DNA of 64,000 nucleotides, taken from IMG/VR virus record IMGVR_UViG_3300023184_004051, positions 44,671 to 108,670 of that record; one strand, written 5' to 3'. Position numbers and translations under genes: made by a program. The DNA is from a virus. Shown here piece by piece: positions 46,067 through 59,379 of this stretch (positions are counted from its first letter, which is position 1; each line of letters starts with the position of its first letter). The notes under the pieces are model-generated. The model did no database searches, had not been told where the DNA came from, and worked only from the letters and a program-made list of their open reading frames with translations.

Positions 46067-46561
46067 ATGTCTATCAACCCTTTCCATTACGAAAATCTGC
46101 TGAAATCTGCTGGCAACTACCCCATTGCAAAGGGAGATTTGCCCGGACACCCGTTTCGGGGGAACCAGTACCAAACTCTCAACTCTGCGCTAGACCACAT
46201 TTCACAAACGGCTTATCGGAGCGGCGGGAGGATTGAGAGGGACTCGGTTGCCGATGCCCACCGTGCAGCGGCAAAGGAGCATTACAGCAGAGCAGCCGGA
46301 CTCCTTCAGCACGCCCAAAACCAAGTTGACGCTGGATTGTCAAACACGACTGAGCAATACAAGCAAGATGTTCACGATGCGATTGGCGCTCATCTGCTTG
46401 CTGGAAAAGCGCACGATGCCGCCGCTGATGAAAACTCACGAGGGGTGGCTTATGGCCCCGGAGAGGTAAAGCCGTACAACGCTGAACAATCTGCATCCGC
46501 CTCAAAGACGGCTTTACGCCGTTCGGGTGAAGCACGAGCCACTACAGAACTTCTTTCCTAA
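46067..46561 (+). CDS. tagged helical protein A
   Basis: 164 residues, ATG after GGAAGGAGG. Tag: INPFHYENLLKSAGNYPIAK then GDLPGHPFRGNQYQ. The remainder is helical and Ala/His/Gln-rich (AHRAAAKEHYSRAAGLLQHA ... AIGAHLLAGKAHDAAADENS), like the coiled-coil part of the minus-strand gene at 43490. Function unknown; predicted internal virion protein. Confidence 0.65.
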   Translation: MSINPFHYENLLKSAGNYPIAKGDLPGHPFRGNQYQTLNSALDHISQTAYRSGGRIERDSVADAHRAAAKEHYSRAAGLLQHAQNQVDAGLSNTTEQYKQDVHDAIGAHLLAGKAHDAAADENSRGVAYGPGEVKPYNAEQSASASKTALRRSGEARATTELLS

Positions 46562-50614: not shown

Positions 50615-50651
50615 GGTTTCACCACTGAACTAAAGGAGAGTGAGGCAACCA

Positions 50652-50873
50652 ATGTTCACCATTTTCTGCCAATCACACGGCAAAGAGGAAGTCTGTCCAA
50701 GCGAGCCTTACAAGGTCTGCCCTGAGTGCTTCCACATCTTTCATACCCCTGAGGCGCTGCTAGCCGACGCAAACATCGAACGCTTGCAGATAACCCCGAG
50801 TAGTGAAAATGTCACGCTCATCACGGACACGGAAGCCGTGTTGTCCTGTCCGCATTGCGTTCACGACTTCTAA
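50652..50873 (+). CDS. small zinc-binding-type protein
   Basis: 73 residues from ATG 50652 (GTG 50640 is the alternative, but it lies one base after AAGGAG). FCQSHGKEEVCPSEPYKVCPECFHIFHTP and SCPHCVHDF contribute CxxC pairs. Unrecognised. Confidence 0.6.
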   Translation: MFTIFCQSHGKEEVCPSEPYKVCPECFHIFHTPEALLADANIERLQITPSSENVTLITDTEAVLSCPHCVHDF

Positions 50874-50883
50874 GGAGGGCTTG

Positions 50884-51171
50884 ATGTCTGCTGAAATGTC
50901 TTACGAGGACTTGGCGCTTAGGTTTTTGTATTTAGCCAACAACAGCGGCGTGAACTACGGGCAAGGAAATCGCTATCTAGCCGAGGCTCAGGTCTGGGCG
51001 ACCCTTCACCTCGCAAAAGCGATGGGCAACATAGCAGAAACTCACCAAACTGATGAGTTTGCGCTATGTCAGCACCGCACCCTCAATACCCATAAGATTG
51101 AGAACGATGTTGCCGACGGGTTTTGGACTGAACTCAACACTTACTGCCCGCAATGTGGTGAAAAGTTATGA
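50884..51171 (+). CDS. small protein ending CPQCGEKL
   Basis: 95 residues from ATG 50884, after GGAGGG. SYEDLALRFLYLANNSG, a helical region, CQHRTLNTHKI and TELNTYCPQCGEKL; zinc ligands C-H...C--C as in the protein at 49251. Unrecognised. Confidence 0.65.
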   Translation: MSAEMSYEDLALRFLYLANNSGVNYGQGNRYLAEAQVWATLHLAKAMGNIAETHQTDEFALCQHRTLNTHKIENDVADGFWTELNTYCPQCGEKL

Positions 51172-51326
51172 CAAGCCGCTTGATGAGAAACTTCTACTTC
51201 TTTGCGAAGCGCCAAGCCGCACGAGTAGCCTGCCTGTTCGGTCACCACAATCACAAGATGGGCGTTCCGGCTAAGGGTGGCGGCGGTTTCGGATGCCTGT
51301 GGTGTAAAAAGCCCCCAAAAAAGTAG
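51168..51326 (+). CDS. small Cys/His protein, 52 aa
   Basis: ATG 51168 overlaps the TGA before it. RVACLFGHHNHKMGVPAKGG and FGCLWCKKPPKK give C, HHNH and CxxC ligands plus a basic tail. Likely a zinc-bound small protein. The 94 nt after it hold a hairpin (GTTCTGGC / GCCGGAAC, about 51370-51393) but no gene. Confidence 0.55.
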   Translation: MTSRLMRNFYFFAKRQAARVACLFGHHNHKMGVPAKGGGGFGCLWCKKPPKK

Positions 51327-51420
51327 TTCCGCCCCACAAACAGGGCAAAACTATGCTGAAAACGGTATTGTTCTGGCAAAAGAGCGCCGGAACCGATACT
51401 CTTTTGACCCACGAGGGGGA

Positions 51421-51621
51421 ATGATGCCGAGTATTCCAATCAGCAAGACAAGCAAGAAATGGCGCAGAGAAGGATGGCTGTCGCTCTCGCTGCGTGACTT
51501 CGGTTTTGGATTTCACCTCTACTTTTGGCGACGAAAGAACGCGTGGGGAACATCCGGCTTCTCCGTCAACTGCTACTTGCTTTTTGTGGATTTTCACCTA
51601 GAGGTTTGGAAAACTAAATGA
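51421..51621 (+). CDS. small aromatic-rich protein
   Basis: 66 residues, starting at ATG 51421 (or 51424) behind GAGGGGGA. KKWRREGWLSLSLRDFGFGF and YLLFVDFHLEVWK are Trp/Phe-rich strands. ATGA overlap with the deformylase. Unrecognised. Confidence 0.55.
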   Translation: MMPSIPISKTSKKWRREGWLSLSLRDFGFGFHLYFWRRKNAWGTSGFSVNCYLLFVDFHLEVWKTK

Positions 51622-52236: not shown

Positions 52237-52884
52237 ATGGCGACTAACCCTTTCTCTCTTGAAAACCTTGCACCAACTTGGGTGCAGGCTACTGAAATCC
52301 TCAAAGGTGACTTCGTTGGTCACCCCTTCCGTGGCAATCAGTGGGAACCCGGCAATAACCTCGGACTAAGCGAGATGACTTACACCGGAAGCGAAAAATG
52401 GAAAACAGTTGACCCGGCGCAAACTTACCAAGTTGGTTTTGGTCGAGATGACATTGGTACAACCCTCACCAGTAAAGGCGATGTTGGCATTTCCATTTAC
52501 GTTTATGACGATTGGCACGACGATATGGGTCAGTTGAATGTCCTAAAGAGCAGCGAACTGAAGTGGGTTTTGGATGGCATCAGTGGCGGAGAAGCCACTT
52601 GCCGCTCTTGCGAAACGACTTCCCCCCTCAAAGATTTCACTACCCCCGAAGTCATTGCTCCTACCGAAAAAGTTGTTCCGGCAAGCCTCGTCAAGGGCGG
52701 TTGCCCACATTGCGCGCAGGAAACGAGCATCGCAACCGTCGGTCAACTCCTTACGGCCTACACCAAAAACCCAACCAGCAAAGAGATAGACGACCTCACG
52801 GATGCTGTTCACGAGTCAATGACTGGAAACTACGGCGGCTACGACACAATGGATGAATACCGCAGCAGTAGCGGAGACTACTAA
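52237..52884 (+). CDS. tagged protein with zinc knuckles
   Basis: 215 residues. Tag: ATNPFSLENLAPTWVQATEI then LKGDFVGHPFRGNQWEPG. Middle region VGFGRDDIGTTLTSKGDVGI is beta-like. Two CxxC pairs (TCRSCETTS at ~120 and GGCPHCAQE at ~155) could hold one zinc. The C-terminus is acidic/Tyr-rich (GNYGGYDTMDEYRSSSGDY). Unrecognised beyond the tag. Confidence 0.65.
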   Translation: MATNPFSLENLAPTWVQATEILKGDFVGHPFRGNQWEPGNNLGLSEMTYTGSEKWKTVDPAQTYQVGFGRDDIGTTLTSKGDVGISIYVYDDWHDDMGQLNVLKSSELKWVLDGISGGEATCRSCETTSPLKDFTTPEVIAPTEKVVPASLVKGGCPHCAQETSIATVGQLLTAYTKNPTSKEIDDLTDAVHESMTGNYGGYDTMDEYRSSSGDY

Positions 52885-52889
52885 GTCCA

Positions 52890-53249
52890 ATGTCCGGTTT
52901 CACCACCAACGAACTTCTCTACCCCCTAACCAAAGGCGACCTACCCGGTCATCCCTTTCACGGAAATCAGTATGAGGCTGGCGCAGGTGAACTGACCCCT
53001 GATGACAGGGTAGACATTGAGGAACTGATTAGCGAACATCAAGGGAGCATCGGTTCGGCGCGTAGTGAAATCTCTGGGTCAAACCAATATCGGGACTCTG
53101 TTGGCGCAGGTGAATACCGGGCGCAACAACTTGAAAACGACATCGCTAACCACGAATACGCCATTGACGCGTTCAAGGTGGCGCTGCACTCTGGCAAAAA
53201 AGAAGATTTGGAATGGGCAAAAGCCCTTTCCGCTAGTGCATACAAGTAG
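52890..53249 (+). CDS. tagged small protein
   Basis: 119 residues. Tag: SGFTTNELLYPLTK then GDLPGHPFHGNQYEAG, nearly the same as that of the ADP-ribosyltransferase-like gene at 45341. The remaining ~85 residues form acidic helices (DDRVDIEELISEHQGSIGSA, YRAQQLENDIANHEYAIDAF). Unknown. Confidence 0.65.
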   Translation: MSGFTTNELLYPLTKGDLPGHPFHGNQYEAGAGELTPDDRVDIEELISEHQGSIGSARSEISGSNQYRDSVGAGEYRAQQLENDIANHEYAIDAFKVALHSGKKEDLEWAKALSASAYK

Positions 53250-53255
53250 GCAACC

Positions 53256-53960
53256 GTGAGTGATTTCACCACGACCTCCCTACTCAAAGGTCTTTCTCGC
53301 TACCCCCTAACAAAGGGGGATTTACCGGGGCATCCGTTCCACGGGAACCAGTGGACAACAGTTGGTGGAATAACCCCCGATGTTGCCAACTTCCTTACGA
53401 AAAACGCTAACAAGTTTTACAGGGCTGGTGGAAAGGTTGAGGTTGTCAAGTTCTACCAACGCAACCTTGCCAATGGTCGCAGCCGTGGAGATGAAAGACA
53501 GCGCCTCTCAAAGGTGCTGGACAAACTCTACGACGAGCAGCGCAAGGAATACGAAACCTCAGGGGATAGTGAAAAATACAAGGAGATTGAGCGCCTGATT
53601 TCGGGCTACTCCTTCACCAAACTTGCCTTGATGGGTTTTGGAAGCGCCATCGTCGCCACCGATAAAGACGGCAATGTGGTCGGGGCAATGAGTTACACCA
53701 CAAATGACGAAAGAATGAAAGTCGGCATCCTCGGCTCATCTAATGAACCTGATGGCGTGGCTACAGCCATTGAGGTGAAAGCGGCATCATTGGCAAACGA
53801 AAACTCCCTAAGGGTTGATAGCGAAGCCACTACAGACGCAGAGCCATATCACCGCCTCATCGGGAGAACCATTAGCGACCCACAAACCCTTGGGAGCAGT
53901 TGGTCAGCAGAGGAAGTCAAAGCAATCGCAGGCTTACCCGTCGGGCCGGAACACATCTAA
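53256..53960 (+). CDS. tagged GNAT-like protein 1
   Basis: 234 residues, GTG start. Tag: SDFTTTSLLKGLSRYPLTK then GDLPGHPFHGNQWTTVGG. A ~75-residue helical part follows. The C-terminal half has AIVATDKDGNVVGAMSYTTN, ILGSSNEPDGVATAIEVKAA and a closing PYHRLIGRT, which fit the beta4-alpha3 and tail of GNAT acyltransferases (G-a-G-AL ... f-e-lGF). Same length as the next gene. Substrate unknown; an injected modifying enzyme is one possibility. Confidence 0.55.
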   Translation: MSDFTTTSLLKGLSRYPLTKGDLPGHPFHGNQWTTVGGITPDVANFLTKNANKFYRAGGKVEVVKFYQRNLANGRSRGDERQRLSKVLDKLYDEQRKEYETSGDSEKYKEIERLISGYSFTKLALMGFGSAIVATDKDGNVVGAMSYTTNDERMKVGILGSSNEPDGVATAIEVKAASLANENSLRVDSEATTDAEPYHRLIGRTISDPQTLGSSWSAEEVKAIAGLPVGPEHI

Positions 53961-54664
53961 TGACACGCTTGGATTTCACTACTGAAGGCTTGCTCTATCC
54001 CTTGACCAAGGGGGATAGCCCCGGACATCCCTTCAGGGGGAACCAATGGCAAACCGTTGGGGGCATCACGCCAGAGGTAGCGGAGTTCATCACCACCAAT
54101 GCAAACAAGTTCTACAAAGCGGGCGGCAAAATCGTCAAAATCAAATCGGGGGCAACAAAACTCCGCAACGGCAAAGACCTTACAGAGGCCCGCCAAGAAA
54201 TGACCGCCAAGATTGAGCAACTGTCCACTAGACAGATGACCCCCGAAACAGAACGCCTCATAGAGGGCTACAAGATGATGCGCCGCAACCTCTCTATGCT
54301 GGACAGGGAAAAAGGCCGTGAAGCCTATGTCGCCTTAGACAAAGACGGAAACATCGCTGGTGTAATCGGCGCAATCCAACAACGCGCAGGGAAAGATTGG
54401 AAAATCACGGAGTTAGGCTCCACTAACGAAATCCCCGGAACCGCAACCGCTTTGGAACACTACATCGCTTCATCGGCAGGGAACACCAACTTAGAAAGTA
54501 TCTCTACAGCAGATGCCGTCAACTACCACACGGCTATTGGTAGAACCCTTGAACCCATCATCCACCCTTATGACAAAACCCCTACAGGAGACTTCACCTC
54601 AAACTGGTCACTCTCCGAGATGCAAGCGATTGCCAAACTCCCCATAGGCCCGAAACACATCTAA
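53960..54664 (+). CDS. tagged GNAT-like protein 2
   Basis: 234 residues, TAATG overlap. Paralogous to the previous gene over the whole length: tag LDFTTEGLLYPLTK then GDSPGHPFRGNQWQTVGG; EVAEFITTNANKFYKAGGKI against DVANFLTKNANKFYRAGGK; AYVALDKDGNIAGVIGAIQ; TELGSTNEIPGTATALEHYI; and an identical ending style (LPIGPKHI against LPVGPEHI). Clear tandem duplication, diverged to roughly half identity by eye. Confidence 0.55.
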   Translation: MTRLDFTTEGLLYPLTKGDSPGHPFRGNQWQTVGGITPEVAEFITTNANKFYKAGGKIVKIKSGATKLRNGKDLTEARQEMTAKIEQLSTRQMTPETERLIEGYKMMRRNLSMLDREKGREAYVALDKDGNIAGVIGAIQQRAGKDWKITELGSTNEIPGTATALEHYIASSAGNTNLESISTADAVNYHTAIGRTLEPIIHPYDKTPTGDFTSNWSLSEMQAIAKLPIGPKHI

Positions 54665-54696: not shown

Positions 54697-54703
54697 CATC
54701 ACT

Positions 54704-55318
54704 ATGTCCGACACTTCCAATACTCCCGAGTTCACCTTGCCGCCCCTTCCCGAAAAGGGTAAGAGGACAGGCAGAAAGACCCTTCTCACCCCAGAGGTCA
54801 CCGATGCCGTTGTAAGGCTTCTCAAAGCCGGAAACTACCTCAGTCAAACAGCACGGTATCTCGGCCTAGACCCAACCACTCTGAACAGTTGGAGGGCAAG
54901 AGGGAACGAACTGATGGCAAGTGGGAGGGAGGATTTGGATGAATACGAACAAATGTTCGTAGACTTCTCCATTGCCGTAGAGAGTGCAAAGGCTGAGGCT
55001 GAAATCAGGGCAGTAGACATCATCCGCAAGGCTATGCCGAAAGATTGGCGAGCAGCAACTTGGTATTTGGAAAGAACCAACAACCGAGATTGGGGAGCAA
55101 CCCAACGGACAGAGGTATCAGGCCCAGATGGAGGGGCTATCCCGATAGATGTGGACAGTGTGTATCGGAAGTTGGAAGCGGTCACCCAAAGGGTCGTTTT
55201 GGAAGCCGAGATTGCATCTCAGCCGACAGAGAGTGCGGAACTACCAGAGAGTGCCGGAGATGGTGAAATAGAGGCCAATGAGCCGGTTGTAGAGAGTGAA
55301 CCGAATAAGGCGTTATGA
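54704..55318 (+). CDS. terminase small subunit
   Basis: 204 residues. Residues ~22-70 (GRKTLLTPEVTDAVVRLLKA, GNYLSQTARYLGLDPTTLNS) are the HTH that binds the packaging site. KAEAEIRAVDIIRKAMPKDW and ATWYLERTNNRDWG are conserved in the small terminase/phBC6A51-like family. The C-terminus is acidic. It is separated from the large subunit by 2 kb of mainly non-coding DNA, which is unusual. Confidence 0.85.
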   Translation: MSDTSNTPEFTLPPLPEKGKRTGRKTLLTPEVTDAVVRLLKAGNYLSQTARYLGLDPTTLNSWRARGNELMASGREDLDEYEQMFVDFSIAVESAKAEAEIRAVDIIRKAMPKDWRAATWYLERTNNRDWGATQRTEVSGPDGGAIPIDVDSVYRKLEAVTQRVVLEAEIASQPTESAELPESAGDGEIEANEPVVESEPNKAL

Positions 55319-55412
55319 CCCAATATTGGCGTTATGACAGCCCTGCCCTTACGAGCCTCGGAACTTCCCTTCCCAAAACTCAACCGTCGTTTAGTGAAAT
55401 CCAATAAAAGAC

Positions 55413-55441
55413 TTGACTTTGGATGTGGGTTGCGTTAGCCT
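55413..55441 (+). promoter_or_regulatory. promoter TTGACT-N17-TAGCCT for a non-coding RNA
   Basis: Good hexamers with exact 17-nt spacing; start expected near 55448. The downstream ~300 nt has no convincing ORF. Confidence 0.65.
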
Positions 55442-55447
55442 GCGTTT

Positions 55448-55746
55448 GGCCGCAACAAGGCGGCCCAAAAACATAGAAGTTCAGGGACTACACACCCTGC
55501 ACCTCTACCGCAAACAGCGAACAAGAGCCGGCCCCGCCACAAGACTGACCTGTCCAAGTCAGAGGGGTCGGCTTGTTGCGTTGTAGGGCATTGACGGTTA
55601 GTGAAATGTGCGATTACGCTCTTGGTTGAAGTGGCCGCTACAGAAACCCATAGGTCTAAAGGGTCTGCAACCTTTACTGACGAGTAGGGCGCTGCTTCTA
55701 GGGCAACAGCAGACCCGCCTCCCTTTTGCGACGGCGGGGAGTTTTT
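55448..55746 (+). ncRNA. candidate structured RNA 1
   Basis: Between a sigma70-type promoter and two terminators. Internal hairpins include GGCCGC-AACAAG-GCGGCC, CAGGG-ACTACACA-CCCTG, a long stem CCGGCCCC / GGGGTCGG (about 55541-55578) enclosing GACT...AGTC, and GCTG...CAGC. The only ORF reading through (from 55608) runs past the terminators and has no protein-like content. Ends are inferred. Confidence 0.5.
55714..55746 (+). terminator. intrinsic terminator of RNA 1
   Basis: CCCGCC / GGCGGG stem followed by GAGTTTTT. Confidence 0.75.
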
Positions 55747-55748
55747 GG

Positions 55749-55785
55749 CTAAGACCTCCGCACTATGCGGGGGTCTTAGTTATTT
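55749..55785 (+). terminator. second terminator, 13-bp stem
   Basis: CTAAGACCTCCGC pairs with GCGGGGGTCTTAG (one T-G pair) around ACTAT, followed by TTATTT. Confidence 0.8.
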
Positions 55786-55807
55786 CACTACGATGCGCTC
55801 GCTCGAC

Positions 55808-55928
55808 AAAAAACCCCGAGTTTTGGAAAACTCCGCAGATTTCAGCAGATTTTCGTAGACGAAAAACCCCCCGTTCCAAAACGCAACACGGGCAGACAAA
55901 AACCCCCTCGCAAGCGAAAACAAGGGGG
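55808..55928 (-). terminator. three tandem leftward terminators
   Basis: Read on the minus strand, three stem-loops each run into GGGG(G)TTTTT: GAGTTTTCCAAAACTC then GGGGTTTTTT (to 55808); CCCGT...ACGGGGGG then TTTTT (to 55863); and CCCCCT...AGGGGG then TTTTT (55928-55898). The first to act on RNA 2 is the last named. Together they would stop leftward transcription from entering the small terminase operon. Confidence 0.7.
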
Positions 55929-56018
55929 CTTCGTCTTAGTTAGGGAGGGCAACACCGCAGCCGTCGTCGAATGAATACCGACTAAGGAAAAACAGAGAAA
56001 CGACGACTACGGGTTGCC
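55898..56018 (-). ncRNA. candidate small antisense RNA (RNA 2)
   Basis: About 121 nt from a near-perfect promoter to an intrinsic terminator. The 5' part folds into a stem (GGCAAC/GTTGCC, CCG/CGG, GTCGTCG/CGACGAC, with internal loops) closing a 31-nt loop (55969-55999). The loop contains CCTTAGTCGGT, the complement of the ACCGACTAAGGA leader element of several phage mRNAs. Pairing would reach 15 bases with the leader of the gene at 62202 and 12 with those at 10395 and 61901. Existence of the RNA is an inference from these signals. Confidence 0.6.
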
Positions 56019-56025
56019 GACTCAC

Positions 56026-56054
56026 ATCATAAAGCGAACACAGGTTCGTGTCAA
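56026..56054 (-). promoter_or_regulatory. promoter TTGACA-N17-TATGAT (minus strand)
   Basis: The closest match to consensus in the window. Start expected near 56019, exactly at the first base of the RNA 2 stem. Confidence 0.85.
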
Positions 56055-56114
56055 GCGGTATGTGACACCCCCCTCGTAAACTTGTTCCCGGAGGGGTCTG
56101 TCTCCGTACAGCGC

Positions 56115-56197
56115 AAGACCCCCACCGGAGGTCGGTGAGGGTCTTATGCGCCCGACTAAGAGCGAGCGGCGGCGACGAAGTGGGGGCTTCATCACCT
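56115..56197 (-). ncRNA. candidate small RNA 3 with the same antisense core
   Basis: From the promoter at 56204-56232 to a 12-bp hairpin (AAGACCCTCACC / GGTGGGGGTCTT, 56145-56115). Between them lies CTTAGTCGG (56160-56152), the same core as in RNA 2, flanked by CGCC...GGGCG arms. The hairpin lacks a T-run, so the 3' end is uncertain. A 56-codon arginine-rich frame also begins near the start but has no good ribosome site. Confidence 0.4.
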
Positions 56198-56203
56198 GCA
56201 ACT

Positions 56204-56232
56204 ACTCTATCACGGTTGAGTGACCAATGCAA
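56204..56232 (-). promoter_or_regulatory. promoter TTGCAT-N17-TAGAGT (minus strand)
   Basis: Same hexamer type and spacing as the protein-gene promoters at 31292 and 48295. Confidence 0.65.
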
Positions 56233-56243
56233 ATCGGGCAAAG

Positions 56244-56271
56244 AAAAAAGCCCCACCCCGAAGGGTGAGGC
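56244..56271 (-). terminator. intrinsic terminator of RNA 4 (minus strand)
   Basis: GCCTCACCC-TTCG-GGGTGGGGC followed by TTTTTT: a perfect stem (one T-G pair) with TTCG loop. Confidence 0.9.
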
Positions 56272-56661
56272 TCTGTCTCGCAAGGCTACTTATCGGATTT
56301 CCCTTTTCCTCAGGCTAACCGCTCTCGCTCCCCACTTCCTAGACAGCGCGGCTACACCTCCTACGAGTGCCACTTCTAGGCTTGCCCGCACACTTGCGCG
56401 ATTGGGCTTTGAGTATTTGTGACCCGATGAGTCTGGCGTGTCACCCTGCTAGCCCACACGCCTTTGGATGGAAGGTCAAGCGCAACCTGCCGGCCCGCTA
56501 TCGCTCGTCATCCTCCGGCGCAGAACGCACATAGGGATTTCCCTTTCTAAGAGGTAGACCCCCCCAAACTGCTCAGCCTTAGAAGCCCGCAGCCCAAAGT
56601 GACACAACACACCCATCGGATTTCGTTGTCAAGGAACTTCGTGAGGTCTACCGCCCCTCAC
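56244..56661 (-). ncRNA. candidate large structured RNA 4 (~418 nt)
   Basis: Bounded by a promoter (56668-56696) and a perfect terminator. It opens with CGTGAGG...CCTCACG at the predicted first bases, and contains GGCGTGT...ACACGCC, CCTAGA...TCTAGG with an inner GTGGC/GCCGC, and two copies of AAAGGGAAATCC. Frames on either strand are short or lack starts. Not recognised as tmRNA, RNase P or 6S RNA. Possibly a giant phage RNA of the ornate (GOLLD-like) kind, but this is only a suggestion. Confidence 0.5.
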
Positions 56662-56667
56662 GCAACT

Positions 56668-56696
56668 ACCATACACCACTCTAGTTTGGAAGTCAA
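56668..56696 (-). promoter_or_regulatory. promoter TTGACT-N17-TATGGT (minus strand)
   Basis: 17-nt spacing, start near 56661, at the base of the first hairpin of RNA 4. Confidence 0.7.
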
Positions 56697-56722
56697 GTCA
56701 TTTGGAAAGAATATTTCCAAAC

Positions 56723-56836
56723 TCAACAACCTTCCTCTCGCATCTGGCTCAACAGCATCTCATCTGCGAGTGCTTCCAAGTCCTCGTCGGACATACCCTC
56801 GAAGTTGCTCGCTACCATCTCATCCCAAGTCATCAT
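56723..56836 (-). CDS. small acidic protein, 37 aa
   Basis: ATG 56836 (tandem ATGATG) follows GAGGTG at good spacing, and the promoter lies 36 nt upstream. Peptide MMTWDEMVASNFEGMSDEDL, then EALADEMLLSQMREEGC: acidic and helical, typical of small phage regulators. It is the only credible ORF on the minus strand of this block. Confidence 0.65.
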   Translation of the reverse strand: MMTWDEMVASNFEGMSDEDLEALADEMLLSQMREEGC

Positions 56837-56871
56837 CAGTCACCTCGTTCTCGTTGTATCTACTACACCAC

Positions 56872-56900
56872 ACTCTATCAAGAGGGTGTCACATAGTCAA
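56872..56900 (-). promoter_or_regulatory. promoter TTGACT-N17-TAGAGT (minus strand)
   Basis: Drives the 37-aa gene. Back-to-back with the rightward promoter at 56931. Confidence 0.75.
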
Positions 56901-56930
56901 GTCATTTTGGAAATATTATTTGGCGGCCCC

Positions 56931-56959
56931 TTGCTCGACACCACCCCTCCTTGTATTTT
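56931..56959 (+). promoter_or_regulatory. promoter TTGCTC-N17-TATTTT, leaderless
   Basis: 17-nt spacing and only 6 nt from the -10 to ATG 56966. Overlaps a TTTTGGAA motif. Confidence 0.6.
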
Positions 56960-56965
56960 GGAAGT

Positions 56966-57145
56966 ATGAGCGCATACAACGGATTAGACACGACCACAGG
57001 AAACATCACCCCACTCTGGCTCTGCGATGAGGCAGGCTGCAATCTCGGATGTGAGGTTGGAACACCAGAGGCCGAAGGCTGGCTTGCCACCGAGGAAGCA
57101 CACTTCTGTCCTACCCACGTCATTTCTCGCTTCGGCAGCAAGTAG
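56966..57145 (+). CDS. small Cys-rich protein
   Basis: 59 residues from ATG 56966. LWLCDEAGCNLGCEVGTPEA and ATEEAHFCPTHVI give C----C---C and C--H, a plausible zinc site. Unrecognised; similar in type to the zinc proteins at 47827-52197. Confidence 0.65.
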   Translation: MSAYNGLDTTTGNITPLWLCDEAGCNLGCEVGTPEAEGWLATEEAHFCPTHVISRFGSK

Positions 57146-57149
57146 CAGC

Positions 57150-57180
57150 GGCCCAGCAGCGAGTTTTGGAAAACTGGGCC
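57150..57180 (+). terminator. hairpin, possible terminator
   Basis: GGCCCAG...CTGGGCC encloses AGTTTTGGAAAACT, itself an inverted repeat that overlaps the right arm. A T-run comes 10 nt later (57192-57197). The 15-mer GAGTTTTGGAAAACT also occurs at 55818. Confidence 0.5.
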
Positions 57181-57210
57181 ATACCCCCCTATTTTTTGTC
57201 CGAGCAGGGC

Positions 57211-57216
57211 TACGAT
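57211..57216 (+). promoter_or_regulatory. -10 box TACGAT, leaderless promoter for large terminase operon
   Basis: GCTACGAT six bases before ATG 57223; same box as at 1071 and 1413. Confidence 0.6.
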
Positions 57217-57222
57217 AGGGGG

Positions 57223-57306
57223 ATGAAGCATTACCTCCCATACCTCTACTCCTTCTTGGCAGGCTTTGGAACTGCGATGACCGTCGCTTTCTTTCGCCGT
57301 AGGTAG
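57223..57306 (+). CDS. micro-membrane protein, 27 aa
   Basis: Apparently leaderless ATG 57223 to TAG 57306, 4 nt before the large terminase ATG. MKHYLPYLYSFLAGFGTAMT then VAFFRRR: one membrane helix with a basic end. Might serve mainly to start the operon transcript; function unknown. Confidence 0.5.
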   Translation: MKHYLPYLYSFLAGFGTAMTVAFFRRR

Positions 57307-57310
57307 TGAA

Positions 57311-58276
57311 ATGAACCAAATCATCCAGCGGCTTTTGGAAGCCGGCCCCGAACAGAAGCGGCAAATCTTGTCGAGTCTGTCAAAAGACGAGTTAGCAGTC
57401 GTCTACCGTGAGTTGGAAGTCATCGAAAGCAGCCCAACACGGCGTTGGTATTGCCCCCGTGAGGTCTGCAACGGCGAGCCACACGCAGGATTTCACTGGT
57501 GCGACCACCCGATTGACGGGAACCACACGCCATACTGCAAGCACGCTCGAACACCACAGCGCCCGCCGGAGGAAACGGCAGACAAGCCGTGGCTTACTTG
57601 GTTCTTTAGCGGCGGTCGAGGAACGGGAAAGACACGAGCCGGAGCCGAGTGGGTTTTGGATTTGGTATGGAACCAAGGCTACAAGCGCATCGCACTTGTC
57701 GGTCGAACACCAGCCGATGTCCGAGATGTGATGATTTACGGGGATAGTGGAATAATGTCCGTGAGCGACCCCCATCCCCGCCCCACACACGAGCCGACCA
57801 AGCGCAGGCTCATCTGGCCGAATGGGGCGCAAGCCTTCACCTATTCCGCCGCCGCTCCGAGTCAGTTGCGTGGCCCTCAGCACGATGCGGCGTGGTGCGA
57901 TGAGTTGGCCGCTTGGACTGACGCTCCAAAGGGCGATGTTTTGGACACCTCTTGGAACAACCTGATGCTCGGCTTGCGTCTGGGGACAAATCCAAAGGCG
58001 CTCGTCACCACCACTCCAAAACGAGTCAAGTTGGTTCGACAAGTTATGGAGCGTCGAACAACCGTGATTACACAAGGAACGACCTACGAGAACCTTTCCA
58101 ATATGGCCGCTTCCTTCCGTGAGAACGTGCTTGCGGCCTACGAAGGCACACGCATTGGCGAACAGGAGTTGATGGGAACCCTCCTGACAGATGTTGACGG
58201 TGCAATGTGGACTTTGGAAATGCTCGAAAATCGAGCCGAACTTGTCGCAAGCGTGCGAGCGGGGCTAGATGATTAG
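57311..58276 (+). CDS. terminase large subunit, ATPase part
   Basis: 321 residues. A 95-residue N-terminus with a Cys/His group (YCPREVCNGEPHAGFHWCDH) is followed by Walker A FFSGGRGTGKTRAGAEW (~97-113), QLRGPQHDAAWCDELAAW with the Walker B-type CDE (~185-202), and the coupling motif VTTTPKR (~235). This is the DNA-packaging motor. It stops at TAG 58276, where a full-length protein would continue into the nuclease; the next ORF overlaps by 8 nt in the +1 frame. Confidence 0.9.
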   Translation: MNQIIQRLLEAGPEQKRQILSSLSKDELAVVYRELEVIESSPTRRWYCPREVCNGEPHAGFHWCDHPIDGNHTPYCKHARTPQRPPEETADKPWLTWFFSGGRGTGKTRAGAEWVLDLVWNQGYKRIALVGRTPADVRDVMIYGDSGIMSVSDPHPRPTHEPTKRRLIWPNGAQAFTYSAAAPSQLRGPQHDAAWCDELAAWTDAPKGDVLDTSWNNLMLGLRLGTNPKALVTTTPKRVKLVRQVMERRTTVITQGTTYENLSNMAASFRENVLAAYEGTRIGEQELMGTLLTDVDGAMWTLEMLENRAELVASVRAGLDD

Positions 58277-58898
58277 AGTCACGCCAGACGATTTCACTCG
58301 CATCGTCATAGGGGTTGACCCATCCGTGACTTCAGGCGAGAGCGCAGACGAAACGGGCATCGTTGTAGTTGCAGCCGGCCCACACCAGCCCGATACTTGC
58401 GTGATTGAGACTTGCGACAGCCACGGCTATGTGCTACAGGATGCGACGCTCGCCAAGACCAACAAGAACAGCGTTGACGCTTGGGTGCAACGGGTCATCG
58501 AGGTCTTTGACGATTGGAACGCCAACCTTGTTGTGGTGGAAAGTAATCAGGGCCACGAACTTTTGGAAATGGCGCTGCGGACAAAGCGGCCTGACCTACC
58601 CATCAGCAGACCGAACGCCAAGGAGAACAAGAAGGCACGAGCCGAACCCATTGTGGCGCTCTACGAGCAGGGTCGAGTTCACCACGTTGGCGACGCTGCG
58701 CAGTTCGCTCAGTTGGAGGAACAGATGACGACTTGGGTTCCATCACCAGACGGCAAGCGGCGAGGCAAGTCACCTGACCGCGTTGACGCTCTTGTATGGG
58801 CGCTCGCGGAACTGAACTTGCAGGGCAAGAAATACCGCAAGCAGTTGGAAGCGTTTGCTCCGGTCAACTTCGAGCAACGCAATATGTGGCGTATCTAA
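58269..58898 (+). CDS. terminase large subunit, nuclease part (separate ORF)
   Basis: 209 residues, ATGATTAG overlap. RIVIGVDPSVTSGESADETG supplies the first Asp, VVVESNQGHELLEMAL the Glu, and GKSPDRVDALVWALAEL the last Asp of the RNase H-like headful or cos nuclease. In most phages this is fused to the ATPase. Either a real split with coupled translation, a +1 frameshift, or an assembly error of one base. Confidence 0.9.
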   Translation: MIRVTPDDFTRIVIGVDPSVTSGESADETGIVVVAAGPHQPDTCVIETCDSHGYVLQDATLAKTNKNSVDAWVQRVIEVFDDWNANLVVVESNQGHELLEMALRTKRPDLPISRPNAKENKKARAEPIVALYEQGRVHHVGDAAQFAQLEEQMTTWVPSPDGKRRGKSPDRVDALVWALAELNLQGKKYRKQLEAFAPVNFEQRNMWRI

Positions 58899-59009
58899 CA
58901 CCACACTAAACGGGGGTAGTAAGATACCGGCCCGATGATTTGAGAGCCTTAGAAGGCATCACAGAGCGAGGCTTTTCGCCATCACCACCCGAAAACGGGC
59001 AAAGCCGTA

Positions 59010-59036
59010 GGGGGCAGGGCATCTAGCCCCACCCCC
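59010..59036 (-). terminator. hairpin between convergent operons
   Basis: GGGG-GCA-GGGC pairs with GCCC-CA-CCCC around ATCTA, between the terminase genes (+) and the leftward operon ending at 59044. 58899-59009 contains no gene; a GCCTT-AG-AAGGC hairpin and the string TAGTAAGAT are visible. Confidence 0.55.
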
Positions 59037-59043
59037 CTCGACT

Positions 59044-59379
59044 TCAGTTGCTCGGGGCAGTCGCCACTTCCAAAGCCTTTTGGAAGTAGCGGTGCGCTGT
59101 CGGGTAGGAAACGCCAAAGTTCTTGGCGATGGTCGGGATGCTGTCACCGGCTGCAACACGAGCGTTCAGGTTTGCAACCTGAGTCGGGTTCAGCGCAGGG
59201 CGACGACCACTTCCCTTTTTGCGTGGCTTGCGGGTGGCAGTCACCACAGGGGCAGGAGACTGCGTGAGGCTTTGGAGAGCCTGTGCCGTCAACTTGGTTG
59301 CCTTGCCGTGGTCATCGGCCATCACCGCCACGATTGCTTCGGTCAGAAGCGATACCGTCTTTGCGTTGTGCTTGTTCAT
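59044..59379 (-). CDS. HTH DNA-binding protein
   Basis: 111 residues, ATG after AAAAGGAGGTG. The C-terminal half (GRRPALNPTQVANLNARVAA, GDSIPTIAKNFGVSYPTAHR) is a resolvase/Hin-type helix-turn-helix with a basic GSGRRP arm, like those that bind DNA minor groove. The first half is helical. Last gene of the leftward operon; probably a regulator. Confidence 0.75.
   Translation of the reverse strand: MNKHNAKTVSLLTEAIVAVMADDHGKATKLTAQALQSLTQSPAPVVTATRKPRKKGSGRRPALNPTQVANLNARVAAGDSIPTIAKNFGVSYPTAHRYFQKALEVATAPSN

Follow-up and report, generated by a model that had tools for sequence, protein, structure and literature searches.

GOLLD and ROOL, large noncoding RNAs (ncRNAs) of phages and prophages, rank with the most elaborate of known RNAs. 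GOLLD is described as ornate, with a conserved 3' region, less conserved 5' regions and an unknown function, and ROOL as a large structured RNA in whose assembly kissing loops take part (PMC12286853). The phi29 motor is described as containing a pentameric pRNA ring, and nuclease loss is said to correlate with pRNA (PMC7672431). Actinophages WC1, D29 and Kampy produce abundant ncRNAs from noncoding gaps, their function again given as unknown (PMC10986025). We analyzed a 64,000-nt stretch (the window), the right-hand 64 kb of the 108,670-base IMG/VR virus record IMGVR_UViG_3300023184_004051 (record label G000). It encodes a major head protein, a tape measure and a major tail protein, and the virus is therefore a tailed phage. 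The gap between its small and large terminase genes (terS and terL) carries a structured RNA of about 420 nt, RNA3, and three RNA candidates, RNA1, RNA2 and RNA4. We consider it probable that this block is an ncRNA island and that RNA3 is a trans-acting structural RNA of the GOLLD/ROOL kind. By comparison of its members, the RNA3 family is modular and structurally conserved, and it matches no catalogued RNA family. The RNA3 features are as follows (window coordinates).

56247-56665, minus strand: RNA3, structured ncRNA of about 420 nt with 5' hairpin, core, 3' domain and terminator (homologs and covariance models)
56422-56621, minus strand: RNA3 core with a long closing stem, two kissing-capable hairpins and a long third arm (A6 alignment)
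56273-56410, minus strand: RNA3 3' domain, three hairpins (A3 alignment, 7 sequences)
56247-56274, minus strand: RNA3 intrinsic terminator, 12-bp stem and T run (terminator scan)
56668-56696, minus strand: RNA3 promoter TTGACT-17-TATGGT (strict scan; position kept in homologs)

Relatives were collected with queries for the TerL ATPase (79 loci), TerS (3 loci) and the nuclease (19 loci), and the gap DNA was compared with the whole records of 27 such relatives. Practically only RNA3 found matches in them, with an identity of 92% in G021 (416 nt), 76% in G023 and, for the 3' part, 81% in G017. One locus, listed as both L088 and L117, has a 92% identical RNA3 homolog that likewise lies between terS and terL. 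Covariance models were built for the core (R1) and the 3' domain (R2); the window RNA3, whose sequence is contained in both models, scores 210 and 114 bits, respectively. R1 was built without L161 and detects it at 75 bits (E 6.5e-18). Two independent sequence patterns retrieved the identical 10 contigs, to which the second pattern added three that have no model match; a 3'-domain pattern returned 6 contigs and its relaxed form 16, nine of them confirmed by R2. The core (200 nt) is found in 12 records (G000, G021, G023 and G049-G057) and the 3' domain (134 nt) in 10 (G000, G021, G017 and G057-G063), the two occurring together only in G000, G021 and G057. The family thus comprises 19 records including G000, and the 18 other IMG/VR contigs match RNA3 wholly or by module. 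Near-duplicates are present: the distinct cores are those of the window, L117, L118, L161 and the L112/L113 group, and L168, L171 and L172 do not differ in the stretch compared. A TerLa homolog is encoded on three of the 18 other records (G021, G017 and G023); the remaining ones may be fragments. Pattern matches without R1 support (L157-L159 and L122-L124) and relaxed-pattern matches without R2 support (L165-L167, L169, L170, L173 and L174) were dropped. Weak model matches in G048, G032, G041, G019, G055 and L118 (2636) have E values of 0.36-0.87 and were taken as chance, and a 20-nt match in G020/L107 was rejected because it covers only a G+C hairpin flanked by protein genes on both sides.

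Like GOLLD, the RNA3 family is phage-encoded, large and ornate. The conserved 3' region of GOLLD has its parallel in those 10 records in which R2 detects its domain, whereas RNAs of the L113 group keep the core without that domain. Many GOLLD members exceed 800 nt, in contrast to 160-620 nt for the RNA3 family, and GOLLD often lies near tRNA islands, whereas a scan limited to the window found no tRNA. With ROOL the family shares a phage origin, a structured fold and loops predicted from sequence to be capable of kissing. Neither the GOLLD nor the ROOL model of Rfam gives a match. Homo-oligomeric RNA cages are characteristic of ROOL and GOLLD. The phi29 pRNA, whose packaging ATPase has no active nuclease and whose ring on the portal is required for packaging, is also a phage structural RNA, and an RNA3 family member adjoins the terminase genes in two phages; however, pRNA is much smaller, the location of RNA3 varies, the nuclease has its own gene here, and no Rfam match was obtained. 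The actinophage RNAs of WC1, D29 and Kampy lie at genome ends or in the middle. Scanning the whole window with all 4227 Rfam families gave no match at the gathering threshold, and a search of the window block, L104-L106, L161 and L163 at E ≤ 5 gave low-scoring chance matches only, among them rnk_pseudo, TCV_Pr and CRISPR-DR21, each far below the gathering score. Searches of 50,697 named phage records, in which WC1, D29 and Kampy were not singled out by name, returned nothing for the gap block or the L161 RNA, and RNA3 has no match in 72,556 plasmids. In GTDB species genomes a pattern scan, which was not exhaustive, returned 26 stretches, none confirmed by R1 (best 10 bits, E 0.93). No article on a phage structured ncRNA associated with terminase was found among open-licence PMC papers. 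On these comparisons the RNA3 family resembles GOLLD and ROOL and is not a member of either, because it has no Rfam match, differs in size and shows no tRNA in the window. Modularity also sets it apart, since either the core or the 3' domain occurs with or without other parts, and the natural variants of 160-620 nt allow experiments on which module does what.

Conservation of the structure was evaluated on alignments. In A6, an unfitted plain MAFFT alignment of the five distinct cores, RNAalifold predicts 73 pairs, 26 of them with double-sided compensatory change, and 93.8% of cells pair when the kissing pairs are included. Covariation in A6, again counting the kissing pairs, is 0.377, versus 0.204 ± 0.020 in shuffled alignments (0 of 500 as high) and a maximum of 0.112 when pairing partners are slid. 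For the 3' domain the structure is that of a single member after manual adjustment; across the seven sequences of A3 it is paired in 92% of cells, 11 pairs have changed on both sides, and covariation is 0.333 versus 0.209 ± 0.020 in shuffles. The covariation shuffles ignore the relatedness of the sequences. Whole-molecule folding of RNA3 gives z = -2.4 only, and RNA3 is therefore singled out by comparison and not by thermodynamics. Two 7-nt hairpin loops of the core, UUCUAAG and CUUAGAA, are full complements and invariant in five of five distinct cores; as the loop sequences never vary, they contribute no covariation. By this complementarity the loops could kiss, which we regard as a good hypothesis only. 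The homologs end in an equivalent G+C-rich hairpin and share no reading frame, their longest stop-free stretches varying in frame and length. RNA3 thus shows what is expected of an independently transcribed structured ncRNA, namely a predicted promoter, a terminator, a covarying structure and no conserved open reading frame (ORF).

Across the family the RNA ranges from about 160 to about 620 nt, modules being gained, lost or exchanged. L160 and L164 (about 160 nt) consist of the 3' domain alone, and L168 (267 nt) joins a conserved 5' module to it. L162 (378 nt) and L163 (445 nt) have differing middle parts. The window and L117 (about 420 nt) combine core and 3' domain; in L112-L114 and L118 (490-618 nt) the core is accompanied by a variable expansion on the 5' side and by 3' sequence that R2 misses. 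L161 contains the 5' module, the core, an additional insert and the 3' domain. Most family RNAs have their own promoter, and a terminator-like hairpin follows each. With RNA starts placed by us from conserved sequence, near-consensus promoters precede the RNA in L117, L161, L162, L163 and L168 (equaled by at most 17 of 1000 shuffles) and are less clear in the window and L112-L114 (43-62 of 1000 as good). A subclass of these promoters, TTGACNNTGTGAC-N10-TANNNT, was counted 18 times, in 11 of the 50 records, and is absent from the reversed control. Eight of these sites immediately precede family RNAs, another is the gap promoter at 56872-56900, and nine are elsewhere. Ordinary ORFs follow all five of the latter that were read, one of them, in a relative, being a Mu Gam-like gene (PF07352, E 2e-17). 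Gam is an early end-protection gene, and the timing of the RNA is inferred from that role: as the same promoter class precedes Gam, the family RNA would be expressed early with it. The shared promoter class suggests co-regulation of the RNA family with early genes.

In the window and L117 the RNA is located between terS and terL. In L160, L161, L164 and L168 it is near a PD-(D/E)XK nuclease gene with capsid-type genes close by (PF12705 confirmed in L160), and in the L113 group a 186-aa gene follows it on the same strand after about 35 nt, ahead of the tail genes. Apart from the L113 group, it is mostly antisense to its neighbors. Action in trans is suggested because the family RNA has no fixed neighbor gene, and the terminase gap looks like one of several RNA locations rather than a terminase-bound site.

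We propose that host RNA polymerase transcribes RNA3 early in infection from a promoter class common to the RNA family and, in a relative, the Gam gene. RNA3 would encode no protein and exert no cis regulation. It would act in trans as a folded scaffold, its core closed by a loop-loop kiss within one molecule or between molecules and its conserved 3' domain binding a partner. Its role would be in host takeover or particle assembly, not that of a terminase-specific element. A more detailed version, in which the RNA self-assembles by inter-molecular loop kissing, docks through a 3' module, exchanges 5' and middle adaptors, and serves takeover or head assembly and packaging after early expression with Gam, seems to us unlikely as a whole. 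Several observations weigh against the proposed role of RNA3. The distinct sequences are few (five to six cores and about eight 3' domains). The kissing pairs are invariant, and 17% of mononucleotide shuffles hold some 7-mer complement at that spacing. The RNA3 promoter has no TGTGAC element, and its score is matched by 62 of 1000 shuffles of the 72-nt upstream stretch; L160 and L164 have no detectable promoter (923 and 573 of 1000 shuffles, respectively). The sizeable relatives G001, G005 and G007 (TerLa identity 69-80%) gave no model match, and confident matches in whole records number 4 of 49 for R1 and 3 of 48 for R2; the RNA family is therefore accessory even among relatives.

Other functions were considered for the locus. 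Minus-strand RNAs might control the terS/terL operon locally, for example by transcription interference: RNA2 to RNA4 run opposite to terS and terL, as does the RNA3 homolog in L117, and the RNA is also opposite to its neighbors in L160, L161, L163, L164 and L168. However, the RNA3 terminator is located about 930 nt short of terS and RNA3 overlaps neither gene, the L113 group RNA shares the strand of its neighbors, and covariation is the mark of a folded product, not of a simple antisense RNA. We find antisense control quite unlikely. Hairpins could instead mark a terminase cut site at the DNA level (cos or pac), which would suit a gap that adjoins terS and contains several inverted repeats. 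This is very unlikely for a segment that is bracketed by promoter and terminator and whose homolog sits elsewhere in G023 and G017; moreover, the stems retain G-U pairs (A6 24-184 and 100-172), and we therefore favor a folded RNA over a DNA element.

A packaging RNA, in which RNA3 is a pRNA-like motor part serving the split terL, would explain the terS-terL position in the window and L117, and the conserved loop-loop complementarity could allow oligomers. Yet the distance to terL reaches about 30 kb in G023 and 37 kb in G017, split-terL relatives without a model match exist, and the RNase-H-like nuclease domain is present as a separate gene; together with the lack of an Rfam match, this places the packaging RNA lower again, as highly improbable. 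As a cis-acting leader (riboswitch or attenuator) the RNA would regulate a downstream gene, and the L113 group RNA does end about 35 nt before the same-strand 186-aa gene. Within the gap, however, no same-strand gene follows RNA3, and the reading is weakened because synteny differs between groups; we give it a very small chance. The least probable of these alternatives is a self-splicing intron, a retroelement RNA or a ribozyme of known class. Size and complexity would fit, and the terL genes of relatives contain inteins and a homing-endonuclease-like insert, but RNA3 interrupts no gene and nothing reached the Rfam gathering threshold. Read by eye, the RNA shows no core motif of hammerhead, RNase P or group I/II introns. 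A trans-acting structural RNA is our preferred reading of RNA3.

The protein-coding features in and around the gap are listed below, together with the promoter of the 37-aa ORF.

54704-55318, plus strand: terS (phrog_4102, E 3e-27)
56723-56836, minus strand: 37-aa ORF, codon-usage score +5.7, no PHROG or Pfam match
56872-56900, minus strand: promoter of class TTGACNNTGTGAC-N10-TANNNT upstream of the 37-aa ORF (strict scan)
56951-57145, plus strand: ORF of 59 aa (ATG) or 64 aa (TTG), codon-usage score +12.9, no PHROG or Pfam match
57166-57306, plus strand: 46-aa ORF, codon-usage score +6.7
57311-58276, plus strand: terL ATPase gene (PF03237, E 2e-23)
58269-58898, plus strand: terL nuclease gene (PF17289, E 2e-12)

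The gap from terS to the terL ATPase gene (55319-57310) is 1,992 nt long. The initial annotation had described a block of about 2 kb parting the terminase genes, and the ends hold, terS ending at 55318 and the first terL gene starting at 57311. Its two tiny genes (37 and 59 aa) are likewise supported by their codon scores, which were trained on the long ORFs of the window. The first 1.4 kb of the gap (55319-56722) contain no ORF with a score above 0.7; outside the gap, the window genes are almost contiguous, and a further 1-kb stretch without codon-supported ORFs is found at 50615-51617. The 37-aa ORF has no homologs among the TerL-relative loci compared. The same annotation held that terS and terL are normally adjacent, which is true in part. 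Among 11 relatives with a TerLa identity of 68-80% and both genes on the fetched locus, they are adjacent in three (L010-L012, a single lineage) and 0.4-6 kb apart in eight (L004, L005, L009, L019, L020, L024, L088 and L091), the interval being occupied by protein genes in L004, L005, L019 and L091. It had also counted adjacent terS and terL without this segment in relatives, together with a lack of transcripts from it, as evidence against the block: the adjacency does exist in L010-L012, whereas RNA homologs were found, one of them between terS and terL (L117, identical to L088). The two terL genes, ATPase and nuclease, overlap by 8 nt. Close relatives share the split (57311-58898), and in L010, L015 and L018 additional ORFs separate the two halves; no article on split terL was found among open-licence PMC papers. 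Intein splicing domains are in frame in the TerL ATPase of L019 (7001-8737) and L091 (5673-7004) (PF14890, E ~1e-11), and in L021 (5597-7633) a long in-frame insertion close to the P-loop is weakly similar to LAGLIDADG sequences.

A strict promoter scan (TTGAC-N17-TAnnnT) identified four sites in the gap versus 0.10 expected, a number reached by 0 of 1000 Markov shuffles; the remaining 62 kb of the window also have four. Allowing spacers of 16-18 nt gives five sites versus 0.29 expected. The predicted count of at least five promoters with 17-nt spacers is reproduced by the four strict sites and a weaker one read by eye (56204-56232, minus strand). Minus-strand folding windows of 120 nt reach z values of -6.2 to -6.3 at 55919-56038 and 56099-56278, compared with one of 40 random windows elsewhere at z ≤ -3. 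A simple scan of 54700-59100 found seven terminator-like hairpins versus 5.1 ± 2.3 expected. Of the many stem-loops and terminators reported at the outset, the former are far above chance and the latter are not. The suggestion of a small RNA (sRNA) island is borne out by the strongly covarying RNA3 homologs and by RNA1, RNA2 and RNA4 as good single-genome candidates. The other suggestion, a packaging-site region, gains no support from these findings.

55413-55441, plus strand: RNA1 promoter TTGACT-17-TAGCCT, 8/12 (strict scan)
55442-55750, plus strand: RNA1 candidate, about 310 nt, ending in a G+C hairpin and T5 (fold z -4.3)
55900-56019, minus strand: RNA2 candidate sRNA, about 120 nt, long hairpin and intrinsic terminator (fold)
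56026-56054, minus strand: RNA2 promoter TTGACA-17-TATGAT, 11/12, with the LexA-type palindrome CGAACACAGGTTCG in the spacer (strict scan)
56070-56197, minus strand: RNA4 candidate structured RNA (fold z -4.3, 0/200 shuffles)
56204-56232, minus strand: RNA4 candidate promoter TTGCAT-17-TAGAGT (read by eye)

For RNA1 the fold z of -4.3 (55440-55790) is matched by 0 of 100 shuffles and for RNA2 a z of -7.4 by 0 of 200. The RNA4 promoter resembles the sequence preceding a short RNA of L160/L106 (80% over 30 nt to L106, E 0.005). No relatives of these three RNAs were found with the block DNA in the 27 records or among named phages, and we list them as candidates from a single genome. The perfect LexA-type box CGAACACAGGTTCG (56035-56048) lies between the -35 and -10 elements of RNA2. 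The Streptomyces LexA consensus is given as tCGAAC-N4-GNNCGa (PMC9380542). Perfect CGAAC-N4-GTTCG occurs three times in G000 (108.7 kb) and not in the reversed control. Of the 16 family records searched, 11 encode a LexA-type DNA-binding domain, G000 (C1:41506-41673) among them; the frames read in G000, G017 and G050 have 138-161 aa and look, from length alone, too short for a LexA protease domain. Box and phage protein together point to a possible damage-linked RNA switch. In G057 the LexA-type domain (C1:56411-56551) is about 125 nt from the RNA promoter, its gene oppositely directed.

Repeats connect the RNA block with other parts of the window. A 30-nt inverted repeat (90%) joins 55835-55864 to 46110-46081. 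Runs of otherwise different proteins (52237-54664 and from 46067 onward; also in L113, L116 and L163) have in common an N-terminal tag resembling YPLTKGDLPGHPFHGNQ, which may be a signal for targeting or cleavage. At the 30-nt repeat, the minus strand of the block encodes the short piece YENLLKSA, also present at the N-terminus of the tag gene at 46067; this piece of the block may be the relic of an inserted gene. The motif TTAGTGAAAT (at most one mismatch) is present 49 times in the window versus 2.5 expected, on both strands and in some cases directly before gene starts, a possible regulatory or stoperator-like site. TTTTGGAAA occurs 17 times versus 1.1 expected, with some near-palindromic copies inside the RNA block.

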